Shown piece after piece: positions 32,188 to 54,459 of a DNA stretch of 64,000 nucleotides (its first letter is position 1; every line of letters starts with the position of its first letter). The position numbers were made by a program, and so were the translations under genes. The notes below the pieces were generated by a model. It ran no database searches. It saw nothing but the letters and a program-made list of their open reading frames with translations, and was not told where the DNA came from. This stretch comes from Pseudorhizobium endolithicum (GTDB lineage Bacteria; Pseudomonadota; Alphaproteobacteria; Rhizobiales; Rhizobiaceae): assembly GCF_902153245.2 (NCBI RefSeq), contig NZ_CABFWF030000012.1, forward strand, positions 436,501-500,500, in the 5' to 3' direction.

Positions 32188-32212
32188 GGAACCTGCGCCG
32201 GCTGGATGAGTT
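32188..32212 (+). promoter_or_regulatory. Candidate EcfG (general stress) promoter for the flavoprotein gene
   Basis: GGAAC, 16 nt, AGTT; the -10 element ends 47 nt before ATG 32259. The first base of the -10 element is not the preferred C, so this is one of the weaker matches in the set. Confidence 0.5.
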
Positions 32213-32258
32213 CTCGCCGCCTGGAGCCGCAGAACGCGGCTCGGGAAAAGGAGACCCA

Positions 32259-33197
32259 ATGGCCGGCAGAAGCTACCTCGAGCGCGAGAACCCGCCTCCG
32301 CTGTCCGACTGCCTCGTCATCGGCGGGGGACCCGGCGGCATGACGGCCGCCATCTATCTCGCCCGGATGAACCGGGCGGTACGTCTGGTCGACGGCGGCC
32401 GGAGCCGGGCCTCGCTCATTCCGCGCTCCTACAATCATCCCGGCTTTCCCGGCGGGATCAGAGGCCGCGATCTTCTGGCTCGAATGCGCGAGCAACTGCA
32501 GGAGCTCAGGGTCGGGATACTGCAGGGCGACGTGACGGACGTGCGGAAGACCTCGGAAGGGTTCTTTTCCGTGAGCATTGCCGGCGGCCGCAGCCTGATG
32601 GGGCAGAACCTTGTTTTGGCGACGGGGTTGGTGGACAACCTTCCCCCCATCGATGATGCGCGCGGCATGGTGGCCGAGGGCTATCTGCGGATCTGCCCGA
32701 TCTGCGACGGGTTCGAGATCGGCGGACGGCCGGTCTGCGTCATCGGCGCCACGATGCGGGCGGTCGCCGAGGCGCGGTTTCTCAAGACCTTCAGCTCTTC
32801 CGTCTCCATCGTCACACTGGGCGAAACACGGAGTTGGGAAGGGGAGCCGGACGGGCTGGCCTCCGACGAGGGCATCGCCGTCGTCACGGCGCCGCTGGCA
32901 TCCCTCGAGAGGACGGGGGAAACGGAGACATCGCTGACGTTTGCGGATGGGACCGTGCTCGAGGGGGTCGTGCTTTATTCGGCGCTTGGGGTGCGGCCAC
33001 GGTCGGCGCTGGCGGCAGGGCTTGGGCTTGCCCTGGAAGAGGATGGCCGTATCGCCACCGGCACACACCAGGAGACGGCGATCGAAGGGTGTTTCGCCGT
33101 GGGCGATGTCGTGACGGGACTCAATCAGTTGGGCGTTGCCATGGCGCAGGGGGAGATTGCGGCGGTGGCGATTCACAACAGGCTGAGAGGCGTGTGA
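32259..33197 (+). CDS. Thioredoxin-reductase-like FAD-dependent oxidoreductase
   Basis: A 312-residue flavoprotein. DCLVIGGGPGGMTAAIYLARM binds FAD; the redox pair CPIC is in ICPICDGFEIGG near 150, as in thioredoxin reductase; the second Rossmann motif is degenerate (VIGATMRAVAEARFL); and FAVGDVVTGLNQLGVAMAQG closes the FAD site. The electron partner is unknown: no thioredoxin gene is adjacent. The ribosome site AAAGGAG and an EcfG-like promoter precede it. The gene for a small lipoprotein follows. Confidence 0.85.
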   Translation: MAGRSYLERENPPPLSDCLVIGGGPGGMTAAIYLARMNRAVRLVDGGRSRASLIPRSYNHPGFPGGIRGRDLLARMREQLQELRVGILQGDVTDVRKTSEGFFSVSIAGGRSLMGQNLVLATGLVDNLPPIDDARGMVAEGYLRICPICDGFEIGGRPVCVIGATMRAVAEARFLKTFSSSVSIVTLGETRSWEGEPDGLASDEGIAVVTAPLASLERTGETETSLTFADGTVLEGVVLYSALGVRPRSALAAGLGLALEEDGRIATGTHQETAIEGCFAVGDVVTGLNQLGVAMAQGEIAAVAIHNRLRGV

Positions 33198-33204
33198 TGA
33201 AGAA

Positions 33205-33230
33205 GGAACCCGAGAACCTCCGGAAATGTT
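33205..33230 (+). promoter_or_regulatory. Candidate EcfG promoter for the small lipoprotein gene
   Basis: GGAAC, 17 nt, TGTT; the -10 element ends 36 nt before GTG 33266. It lies inside the longer open frame, which argues for the later start. Confidence 0.6.
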
Positions 33231-33265
33231 ATCCGCCGATCCAATCGAAGGAAGGAAGGTGTGCC

Positions 33266-33544
33266 GTGCGGCAGTTCTTGATGATTTCCGGTCTGGCCCT
33301 GATGATCACCGGGTGCACGGCGGTATCGTGGAACGACGGTCCCGGGCTCGAACCCATTCCCGGCAGCATCACCTATGGCGGCCAACCGCGAAGCCGCCTT
33401 ACGAAGGCGCCGATCGGCAGCTCCGTCAGCCACCAGTTCACGAACGAATACGGCCAGCGAGTGGAAGAGCGCTACGTGATCCAGCCGGATCGCAGCCTGA
33501 AGCTCGTCTGGCGGCGCATCTATCGCGACTGGCTCTACGACTGA
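33266..33544 (+). CDS. Small lipoprotein, function unknown
   Basis: A 92-residue lipoprotein. GTG 33266 is chosen as start: it has an AAGGAAGG ribosome site, and MRQFLMISGLALMITGC then forms a proper signal peptide with the lipobox ITGC. The in-frame ATG at 33197, which overlaps the previous stop, would place 23 hydrophilic residues before the signal. The mature part contains ITYGGQPRSRLTKAPIGSSV and a charged end (VEERYVIQPDRSLKLVWRR), common in small rhizobial envelope proteins. An EcfG-like promoter supports a stress role. Confidence 0.75.
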   Translation: MRQFLMISGLALMITGCTAVSWNDGPGLEPIPGSITYGGQPRSRLTKAPIGSSVSHQFTNEYGQRVEERYVIQPDRSLKLVWRRIYRDWLYD

Positions 33545-33604
33545 CGGTGGCGGGGCAGGGACCGATAACCGCACAATGCGGTTGCCGATCCTCGCCTGTC
33601 TCAC

Positions 33605-34408
33605 TCAGTTGGCGTTGCCGCTGCCCGGCTCGGCCATCTTGCGGTGCTGCTCGGCAAGCATTCCCGCCGGCGTCACGTTCGCGGCCGCGGACATGATCTT
33701 GTTCTTCCAGCCGGCCACCACATCGCCTTCGCCGTCCATCATGGCCTTGAAACCCAGTTTGGCGACATAGGCCGGGTCGTCCTTGCTGCCCTGTCCCACG
33801 GACGTATCCATGAGGTCGGCGCGTTCGAAGAACTCGGTATCCGTCGGACCCGGCATCAGGCAGGTGACGGTGACGCCCGTAGCCTTCAACTCGTTGCGCA
33901 ACGCGAAGGAGAAGCTGTTGATGAAGGCCTTGGTGCCGTTGTAGACGGCCTGGAAGGCACCGGGCATGAAGCCCGCGATGGAACCGGTGAAGAGAATGCG
34001 CCCCTGGCCGCGCGTGCGCATCCGGTTGCCGAGGTCGTGCACGAGCCGGATGGTGCCGGTGATGTTGGTGTCGACAACCCGCTGCGCCTCGTCCAGATCC
34101 TCGTCCAGAAATCCGTGGCCGAGGCCGACGCCCGCATTGGCCATCAGCAGGTCGATTGGGCGGCCGAGGGCGGCGATGCCTTCGCAGAAACGGCGCACGC
34201 CGTCCCTGGTGGCCAGATCCACCTGCATGGCCTGTACCTCCACGCCGAACTCCTTCAGCCGCATCGCGGCTTCCTGTATGCGCGGTTCGTCGGCCGCGAT
34301 CGCAAGATCGTAGCCTTCCTGCGCCGCGCATTTTGCCAGTTCGTAGCCGATGCCTGTCGAGGCACCCGTGACGACGGCCAGCCCCCTGCCAGTTTCAACC
34401 GGGTTCAT
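33605..34408 (-). CDS. Short-chain dehydrogenase/reductase (SDR)
   Basis: A 267-residue classical SDR. The cofactor motif is VVTGASTGIGYELAK, NAG appears in MANAGVGLG, the catalytic Ser in LFTGSIAGF, and the Tyr-x3-Lys in AVYNGTKAF. The ATG at 34408 has an ideal AGGAGGAGACG ribosome site; the nine extra upstream codons of the open frame are dropped. The substrate is unknown. The gene starts 11 bp after the zinc alcohol dehydrogenase stop and is cotranscribed from the stress promoter at 35630. Confidence 0.87.
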   Translation of the reverse strand: MNPVETGRGLAVVTGASTGIGYELAKCAAQEGYDLAIAADEPRIQEAAMRLKEFGVEVQAMQVDLATRDGVRRFCEGIAALGRPIDLLMANAGVGLGHGFLDEDLDEAQRVVDTNITGTIRLVHDLGNRMRTRGQGRILFTGSIAGFMPGAFQAVYNGTKAFINSFSFALRNELKATGVTVTCLMPGPTDTEFFERADLMDTSVGQGSKDDPAYVAKLGFKAMMDGEGDVVAGWKNKIMSAAANVTPAGMLAEQHRKMAEPGSGNAN

Positions 34409-34418
34409 CGTCTCCTCC

Positions 34419-53789: not shown

Positions 53790-53846
53790 CCTAAAAGCTG
53801 ACCGGCTCCCTGTCGGGAGCCGATCACCTCGGGTGCGTAGGGAAGA

Positions 53847-54107
53847 TCAACGTTCGGGATTGTCGGCATTGGCAAGCGCGCTGATGCTGCCGTCGTCGTT
53901 CTCGATATCCTCGCGTTCGTCCAGATCCTCAAGATCGGTCTTCACGAGATAGGTGTCGCCGCCGCCGAGACGCGAGGCTTCGCGGACAGCGTCGGGATTG
54001 GTCATGTCGATCTGGGCGTGCAGTGCATCCTCCGATCGCTCGCGGCCTTCCTGTTCGAAACGGGCGGAGGAGTTCTTGTCGTCCGCAAACTTGTCCTTGG
54101 CATCCAT
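53847..54107 (-). CDS. 86-residue acidic hydrophilic protein
   Basis: A highly charged, acidic protein (KTDLEDLDEREDIENDDGSIS) without hydrophobic segments, probably unstructured. I do not recognise it. ATG 54107 is preceded by AAAGGA; the longer frame upstream is dropped. A full-consensus EcfG promoter lies 33 nt upstream, back to back with that of the DUF3008 gene. Confidence 0.68.
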   Translation of the reverse strand: MDAKDKFADDKNSSARFEQEGRERSEDALHAQIDMTNPDAVREASRLGGGDTYLVKTDLEDLDEREDIENDDGSISALANADNPER

Positions 54108-54139
54108 GACCGGTCCTTTCGCGTTGGGTGTCACCTTCC

Positions 54140-54164
54140 AACGGCACCGACGGTGCTTGGTTCC
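54140..54164 (-). promoter_or_regulatory. EcfG promoter for the 86-residue protein
   Basis: On the minus strand: GGAAC, 16 nt, CGTT: a full consensus match. Its -35 end is 11 bp from the -35 end of the divergent promoter at 54175. Confidence 0.75.
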
Positions 54165-54174
54165 GGCTATGGGC

Positions 54175-54199
54175 GGAACCAAGTCCCTCTGTTGAGGTT
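54175..54199 (+). promoter_or_regulatory. EcfG promoter for the DUF3008 gene
   Basis: GGAAC, 16 nt, GGTT, ending 31 nt before ATG 54230. Confidence 0.65.
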
Positions 54200-54229
54200 G
54201 AAGCCGATAATCAGCCCCAGGAGGTAACC

Positions 54230-54415
54230 ATGCCGGCAAAATCGAAAGCACAGCAGAAGGCGGCAGGTGCCGCGCTTGCCGCAAAGCGCGGCGACATCAA
54301 GAAGAGCGAGCTCAAGGGCGCGTCGAAGAGCATGGAGAAGTCCATGAGCGAGAAGGAGCTTCACGACATGGCCTCGACGAAGCGGAAGGGCAAGCCGGAG
54401 CACGCGTCGCAATAA
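54230..54415 (+). CDS. DUF3008 family small basic protein
   Basis: A 61-residue protein rich in Lys, Ala, Ser and Glu (MPAKSKAQQKAAGAALAAKR, with KSMSEKELHDMASTKRKGKP at the end), matching the DUF3008 family of short basic proteins. The function is unknown; the family resembles stress-linked and nucleic-acid-binding small proteins only in composition. ATG 54230 has AGGAGG at ideal distance. Confidence 0.85.
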   Translation: MPAKSKAQQKAAGAALAAKRGDIKKSELKGASKSMEKSMSEKELHDMASTKRKGKPEHASQ

Positions 54416-54434
54416 CGGGCATGCGAACGGCTTT

Positions 54435-54459
54435 GGAACCTGTGCAGGGAGAGGGCGTT
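54435..54459 (+). promoter_or_regulatory. EcfG promoter for the frameshifted gene
   Basis: GGAAC, 16 nt, CGTT: a full consensus match, ending 39 nt before ATG 54498. Confidence 0.7.

Follow-up and report, generated by a model that had tools for sequence, protein, structure and literature searches.

Results

Genes and promoter-like sites of the island

Between positions 32188 and 54461 of the window (the whole 64-kb stretch of DNA analysed), 13 distinct EcfG-type sites lie within 22.3 kb, each of them 26-69 nt upstream of a start codon. A pattern scan of both strands found 16 exact matches to GGAAC-N16/17-NGTT in the window, 14 of them in this interval, where 54437(-) is 54435(+) read on the opposite strand and was hence counted once; 100 dinucleotide shuffles of the window gave a mean of 2.54 matches and at most 6, as the initial annotation had anticipated in expecting only a few by chance. 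Its twelve sites were all recovered (38130 being corrected to 38129), as were the five CGTT -10 elements among them, and the end of the GTT stands 26-46 nt from a plausible start codon in these twelve, a range that assumes GTG 33266 for the lipoprotein (35 nt) and GTG 35588 for the alcohol dehydrogenase (41 nt). The twelve units are all present, and the total rises to 13-14 with a site that had been overlooked at 38040(-) and another just outside the island at 55649(-).

The units are described here with the fraction of orthologs that keep the site among 34 other rhizobial loci; matches below 45% identity, below 40% coverage or beginning past residue 25 were left out of the scoring, as were four upstream regions running off a stretch (among them ChuX, 28 found and 26 scored; ABM, 27 and 26). 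The site at 32188..32212 (+; orthologs 5/5) lies 46 nt before the ATG at 32259 of a trxB-like FAD/NAD(P) oxidoreductase (32259..33197, +; PF07992), thioredoxin-reductase-like with 138.6 bits to TIGR01292, under the cut-off of 343. The next (33205..33230, +), incompletely conserved at 12/23, precedes by 35 nt a predicted lipoprotein of 92 aa (GTG 33266; 33266..33544, +) with a signal peptide and an ITGC lipobox read by eye; on translation this frame replaced a 145-aa frame from GTG 33259. On the opposite strand, 35630..35654 (-) stands 41 nt before a unit (33605..35588, -; Pfam) made up of a zinc alcohol dehydrogenase (ADH, 34419-35588, GTG 35588) and a short-chain dehydrogenase, SDR1 (33605-34408); ADH has no ortholog in the comparison set, and SDR1 itself is found downstream of a site in 5/5. 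The overlooked site (38040..38064, -) is 69 nt from the ATG at 37970 of a UDP-glucose/GDP-mannose dehydrogenase (36591..37970, -; PF03721, PF00984, PF03720) and recurs in 3/3 orthologs at 63-66 nt, and 38129..38153 (+; 12/12) precedes by 34 nt the ATG at 38188 of a second short-chain dehydrogenase, SDR2 (38188..39045, +; Pfam).

In the centre of the island, the site at 42004..42028 (-; 15/16) lies 45 nt before the ATG at 41958 of NDH-2 (40642-41958), followed by orf40361 and a CYP152-like peroxygenase (39067-40350; Pfam); we infer that the three form a single unit (39067..41958, -), which matches NF053744 at 417 bits, under its 600-bit cut-off. CYP152 is present in 5/57 genomes of the genus (probably Neorhizobium), own included. 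Beyond the microprotein unit described below, 46766..46790 (-) stands 27 nt before the ATG at 46738 of a gene pair (42378..46738, -) and is found in 32/32 island loci. The two frames (44909-46738 and 42378-44912) overlap by 4 nt and both have an alpha-amylase domain, with CBM_48 and DUF3459 in the first (Pfam); from this layout we take them to be treZ and treY, which make trehalose from maltodextrin.

A branched-chain 2-oxoacid dehydrogenase operon (46967..51904, +; Pfam) is embedded in the island but was ruled out as part of the regulon, since a site precedes 0/14 orthologs of every one of the four genes in the operon. Further along, 52105..52129 (-; 3/3) precedes by 26 nt the ATG at 52078 of a hydrophilic protein of 53 aa (51917..52078, -) with no Pfam family match. 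A unit (52129..53735, -; Pfam) encoding an NTP_transf_5 protein (52890-53735; ATG 53735) and a calcineurin-like phosphoesterase (52129-52878) has its site 28 nt upstream (53764..53789, -), again incompletely conserved (26/33 orthologs); the NTP_transf_5 protein occurs in 46/57 genus genomes, own included. The site at 54140..54164 (-; 24/24) is 32 nt from the ATG at 54107 of an acidic hydrophilic protein of 86 aa (53847..54107, -) that matches no Pfam or NCBIfam family, that at 54175..54199 (+; 32/34) is 30 nt from the ATG at 54230 of a 61-aa DUF3008 protein (54230..54415, +; PF11450, E 3.4e-31), and the last, 54435..54459 (+; 5/5), is 38 nt from the ATG of orf54498 at 54498. Just outside the island, the ATG of a GFA-family gene follows the site at 55649..55674 (-) after exactly 8 nt, a gap repeated in three other loci (L187, L188 and L194) with differing letters, and the mRNA of this gene is predicted to be leaderless.

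A predicted tandem 24-residue microprotein

The site at 42045..42069 (+) precedes by 29 nt the ATG (42099) of a microprotein unit with two copies of 24 aa each, copy 1 at 42099..42173 (+; MYSIVWLVGAVVIVIAVLNLVGFA) and copy 2 at 42227..42301 (+; MNSIVWLVGAVVIVLAILSFLGLG). Neither copy has a charged residue, their mean Kyte-Doolittle values are 2.27-2.38, and the product is predicted from its sequence to be a membrane protein with a single helix. The copy 1 site is found 28-33 nt upstream in 34/34 island loci, and a direct recount found the tandem second copy in 22 of these loci and a single copy in 12. Among 34 distinct DNA sequences of copy 1 (the window and 33 loci), variable sites at the three codon positions number 9/0/22, with 22/24 third positions varying and a pN/pS of 0.076, and a GGAG-type ribosome-binding sequence precedes the ATG in 17 of the 18 loci looked at.

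The family is present in all 57 genus genomes searched, and an order-wide search detected it in 49/199 genomes, own included, with 2/199 for a reversed-sequence decoy. Outside the genus, a strict site was found at 36 of the 72 loci examined and the other half were without it, one row (L283, upstream start taken, poor score) being entered as a miss. No family of the Pfam and NCBIfam libraries matched the microprotein (42102-42173, with the start codon left off, was used for the NCBIfam scan). Searches of a plasmid collection gave no match with the 24-mer protein and 10 records with the DNA. The microprotein is not named in the passages of the literature covered, which include passages of the S. 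meliloti small-proteome paper (PMC10117765) and of PMC3188799 and PMC8877191.

Conservation of the sites and genomic background

Across the 34 loci, the island sites are kept upstream of orthologs despite insertions and losses. The motif was present in 205/226 ortholog upstreams of predicted unit-first genes and in 28/325 of other genes, the latter count including 12 microprotein copy 2 upstreams where copy 1 was taken, copy 2 being missing; the reversed motif gave 2 in the unit-first set and 14 in the other, 10 of these before one gene. The sharpest control was provided by treZ, whose site is present in 25/25 rhizobial TreZ loci versus 0/55 Enterobacterales TreZ loci. The comparison with the 34 loci indicates that the sites are under selection.

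The genome holds 265 matches to the pattern in 4,187,687 bases versus 188 for the reversed pattern. At this density 22.3 kb would be expected to hold 1.4 matches, compared with the 13 observed (Poisson tail 3.8e-9, for a single preselected region and uncorrected for its choice as a dense one). The island is not unique, as C12:180,500-203,000 has 17 raw matches in an equal length; contig C12 has three such clusters in all, this island included. Promoter-grade sites on this contig amount to 9/14, 10/13 and 13/25 in the three clusters, 2/18 in the remaining 525 kb and 2/20 for the reversed motif over the whole contig; with automatic gene starts, only 9/14 of the island sites are promoter-grade. 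Scattered sites do exist, with 10/30 being promoter-grade over C1, C2 and a portion of C6. N16-CGTT has 60 matches genome-wide versus 52 for its reversed control, and several relatives have fewer matches to GGAAC-N16/17-NGTT than to the reversed pattern. Because the bare pattern is weak genome-wide, the credibility of the sites comes only from placement and conservation, and the bare-pattern count was dropped as a regulon census, the reversed control being nearly as frequent.

The regulators of the general stress response are encoded in the same genome: PhyR (NCBIfam NF006623, 318 bits, cut-off 240), an EcfG-class sigma factor (NF009169, 356 bits, cut-off 321) and, at C12:237706, NepR, whose call rests on the Pfam model (PF18557, above cut-off), the NCBIfam model giving only 23.6 bits for a cut-off of 100. 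The intergenic region between phyR and nepR-ecfG carries GGAAC sites with the same motif as the island.

Discussion

We propose, with a probability of about 0.88, that this region is a conserved cluster of thirteen predicted units (fourteen with GFA), each with an EcfG-type promoter sequence and likely to be activated together under stress. The PhyR, NepR and EcfG genes, the conservation of the sites before orthologs and their absence from the 55 Enterobacterales TreZ loci support the original view of the motif as an EcfG promoter, and we infer that EcfG reads the island sites, which would become active under stress. The idea of a co-regulated stress island is supported, with the correction that the branched-chain operon in its middle has no site. 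The genes that had been linked to it divide into those with a site (NDH-2, treZ, SDR2 and the tiny proteins) and those without one of their own (CYP152 and SDR1, downstream of NDH-2 and ADH).

One could read the cluster as a surplus of an 8-base pattern produced by chance or composition, given the near parity of the pattern with its reversed control over much of the genome, but the shuffles of the whole window, which never exceeded 6, the ortholog footprint and the TreZ control rule this out as the cause, and we consider its probability negligible. It is also unlikely, though considerably less so, that the sites, as genuine promoters, depend in whole or in part on an ECF sigma factor other than the PhyR-NepR-controlled EcfG, such as a second EcfG paralogue or one of ECF26 type. 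Such overlap has precedents in S. meliloti, where 27/40 targets of RpoE6 are shared with the RpoE2 regulon (PMC6180224), and in R. etli, where two EcfG factors have partly distinct targets (PMC3892343); against it, the island motif equals the R. etli EcfG1 consensus GGAAC-N16-CGTT (PMC3892343) and the nepR-ecfG locus here bears the same motif. The unit at 42045 could instead make a small regulatory RNA in which the two 24-codon frames are incidental: non-coding RNAs are among the transcripts driven by EcfG factors in R. etli (PMC3892343), and in S. meliloti 23 sRNAs have an RpoE2 motif upstream (PMC3616915). However, the invariant second codon positions, the variation at nearly all third positions, the low pN/pS and the ribosome-binding sequence ahead of copy 1 make this quite improbable.

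Under control by EcfG, phosphorylated PhyR would pull NepR off the sigma factor upon stress, and the island units would be turned on together. TreZ and TreY would make trehalose, NDH-2 and the FAD and NAD(P) oxidoreductases could reroute electrons, UDP-glucose dehydrogenase and CYP152 may remodel the envelope or fatty acids, and the single-helix microprotein would be inserted into the membrane. The island resembles the PhyR-NepR-EcfG regulons of R. etli (EcfG1, EcfG2) and S. meliloti (RpoE2) in its regulators and in its GGAAC-N16-CGTT promoter. In R. etli the motif was found in 19/56 down-regulated units (PMC3892343), many targets in S. meliloti (PMC3616915, PMC6180224), and most of its RpoE2-dependent genes (PMC6180224), have no predicted function, and the otsBA trehalose genes of Ensifer aridi have been termed RpoE2-mediated (PMC8877191). 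Whereas those regulons are, in the portions of the papers covered, described as target lists, the island is a syntenic array, kept across the genus, of a dozen units that each have a predicted promoter of their own. Among the papers retrieved on Neorhizobium and the general stress response, neither term appears in a title or abstract.

The predicted tandem membrane microprotein is absent from the regulon descriptions of R. etli and S. meliloti in the passages and sections covered; at this length it may have been missed by gene finders and regulon studies, or logged as a small RNA. Its closest parallels may be YohP and like small stress-induced proteins of E. coli with a single membrane helix; YohP is made under unfavourable conditions (PMC12719787) and also has one hydrophobic stretch (27 versus 24 aa). 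Scans with whole 24-mers gave no significant homology to YohP (best E 0.14 for PF25659 and 0.48 for NF011345), and, unlike YohP, the microprotein has an EcfG-type site ahead, often comes in two tandem copies and, in the window, lacks charged residues. The likeness concerns the predicted manner of working only: by analogy, we predict a stress-made membrane peptide that would quiet or protect the membrane. It is about as likely as not that this charge-free protein, which matches no described family and would often be produced as two adjacent copies under an EcfG promoter of its own, is a core general-stress effector of alphaproteobacteria that puts the membrane in a protected, low-activity state.

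The conserved island provides genes of this genus that are likely to be co-regulated and can readily be tested as a set. With the microprotein found in every genus genome searched, the vague question of how EcfG relates to the membrane may be reduced to a small, deletable gene pair.

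Results

An exact scan for GGAAC-N16/17-NGTT found 16 matches in the window; shuffled sequences (n = 100) averaged 2.54 and never exceeded 6. It placed 13 distinct sites between 32188 and 54461, with 54437(-), the opposite-strand reading of 54435, counted once. The initial annotation had claimed twelve sites just ahead of start codons, five of them with CGTT -10 elements; all twelve were recovered, at 26-46 nt from plausible starts, and five CGTT elements were counted, but 38040(-), 69 nt ahead of a start codon, had been overlooked. The source genome (4.19 Mb in 20 contigs, the window being C12:436501-500500) holds 265 matches, and 188 to the reversed-pattern control. 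At this density 1.41 sites are expected per 22.3 kb, where 13 are present (Poisson tail 3.8e-9, uncorrected for the region having been chosen as dense), and the uniform density that the initial annotation had set against its own proposal was not observed.

Mapping covered the first 100 of the 265 matches. The 70 on contig C12 leave long stretches of it site-free and concentrate in three clusters, one at 90-148 kb, one at 177-241 kb and one being that of the window. Promoter-grade sites, defined as lying outside called genes and 5-120 nt ahead of a called start, make up 10/13, 13/25 and 9/14 of these clusters respectively, compared with 2/18 in the remaining 525 kb of C12 and 2/20 for the reversed control over the whole contig. 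On C1, C2 and among the first three C6 matches the figure is 10/30, so scattered sites also exist. The window's region is one cluster among several and is not unique; nepR-ecfG and phyR lie within the middle C12 cluster, with the motif in their intergenic region. This larger EcfG-type cluster outside the window (C12:177000-241000) surrounds phyR-nepR-ecfG, and its sites adjoin genes for topoisomerase IB, Ku, a starch-synthase-like protein, a PQQ dehydrogenase and a DUF892 protein; sites of the cluster at C12:143000-148600 adjoin a second DUF892 protein, phospholipase D and an LPG-synthase-TM protein.

Conservation was followed across 34 island-bearing loci, taken from 20 stretches of 17 genus genomes (three stretches being neighbours without the island) and from 17 rhizobial TreZ loci kept out of 25 after removal of six repeating genus genomes and two exact duplicates. 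The broad gene order is retained, although individual genes have been inserted or lost: only some loci have UDP-glucose dehydrogenase and CYP152, the branched-chain dehydrogenase operon occurs in 14/34 loci, and ADH has no ortholog among the 34. The site precedes 205/226 orthologs of predicted unit-starting genes and 28/325 of all other genes; the loci are mutually related, so a Fisher value on them should not be read as if they were independent. The reversed motif occurs twice in the first set and 14 times in the second, 10 of those before one gene. Sites are found upstream of microprotein copy 1 (34/34), TreZ (32/32), DUF3008 (32/34), orf53847 (24/24), SDR2 (12/12), NDH-2 (15/16), NTP_transf_5 (26/33), the lipoprotein (12/23), the FAD oxidoreductase (5/5), orf54498 (5/5), UDP-glucose dehydrogenase (3/3), orf51917 (3/3) and GFA (2/2). 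Twelve of the 28 sites before other genes are microprotein copy 1 scored as copy 2, five precede SDR1, which is the first gene of its unit in relatives, and the rest belong to DUF983 (4), orf54971 (4), orf40361 (2) and TreY (1).

For treZ (44909-46738), 80 named loci of 187 found were divided by record title, and the upstream site was present in 25/25 rhizobial and 0/55 Enterobacterales loci. The non-rhizobial loci in this sample all come from Enterobacterales such as Pantoea and Erwinia (62-68% identity), which hints that treZ may have been exchanged horizontally, with an EcfG-type promoter on the rhizobial side only.

At 55649-55674(-), the GTT end of a site lies exactly 8 nt from the ATG of a GFA-family gene (55233-55640), and this gap is kept in three relatives while its letters differ. 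With transcription assumed to start 6-9 nt past the element, such spacing suggests that the unit would yield a leaderless stress mRNA. The frame after site 54435 (54498-54947) looks by eye unlike a normal protein beyond about 70 codons, and an overlapping second frame (54710-54967) scores as coding; the gene is possibly broken in this genome. At 52129-53735 an NTP_transf_5 nucleotidyltransferase, found in 46/57 genus genomes, is paired with a calcineurin-like phosphoesterase under a single EcfG-type site.

Site 42045 is followed by two tandem 24-codon frames for a hydrophobic microprotein, the first starting 28-33 nt past the site in 34/34 loci; the second copy is present in 22/34 and the remaining 12/34 have one. 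The 34 copy 1 DNA sequences (window plus 33 loci) are all different. Of the 24 codons, 9 vary at the first position, none at the second and 22 at the third, and pN/pS is 0.076, the mark of a translated protein under selection. Neither Pfam nor NCBIfam gave a convincing family match (best E 0.028 and 0.012).

A family profile detects the microprotein in 57/57 genus genomes (E <= 1e-6), in 49/199 order genomes (E <= 0.01; 2/199 for a reversed decoy profile made from 14 instead of 25 rows) and in 15/240 class genomes (E <= 1e-5), the latter two counts including its own, and a single-sequence search at a lax E <= 1 in 74/151 family genomes. The strict upstream site accompanies 19/27 Rhizobiaceae loci outside the genus, 11/29 order loci (two, both positive, repeating Rhizobiaceae loci) and 8/18 class loci, which gives 36 of 72 distinct loci, the best-scoring among the matches listed, where arithmetic from the genome pattern density predicts about 0.5% by chance. 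Ten plasmid records match, and the three examined (Rhizobium sp. T1473, Agrobacterium sp. MA01 and R. gallicum) all carry the frame, preceded by a site at a distance of 29-45 nt; two of these three have usable though incomplete gene tables, and neither table lists a gene there. Just upstream of the microprotein, the T1473 record (L267) encodes at 2207-2338 a glycine-rich hydrophobic protein of 43 aa, which has a separate GGAAC site.

Discussion

The sigma factor, the motif and their broad role are already known (PMC3892343; PMC3616915; PMC6180224). The paper listings and text passages searched held no description of the island as such or of the microprotein, although supplementary tables may record the latter as an sRNA or an unnamed ORF.

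Phosphorylated PhyR releases EcfG from NepR, and the freed EcfG would transcribe the island units together. Their products, with predicted roles in trehalose synthesis, alternative electron flow and envelope sugar, along with small hydrophilic proteins and a membrane peptide, would fit dry, salty or oxidative conditions. Escherichia coli YohP, similar in size to the microprotein although without homology to it, is reported to lower membrane potential and fluidity and to induce metabolic silencing (PMC12719787); by analogy, we would guess that the microprotein might play a similar role.
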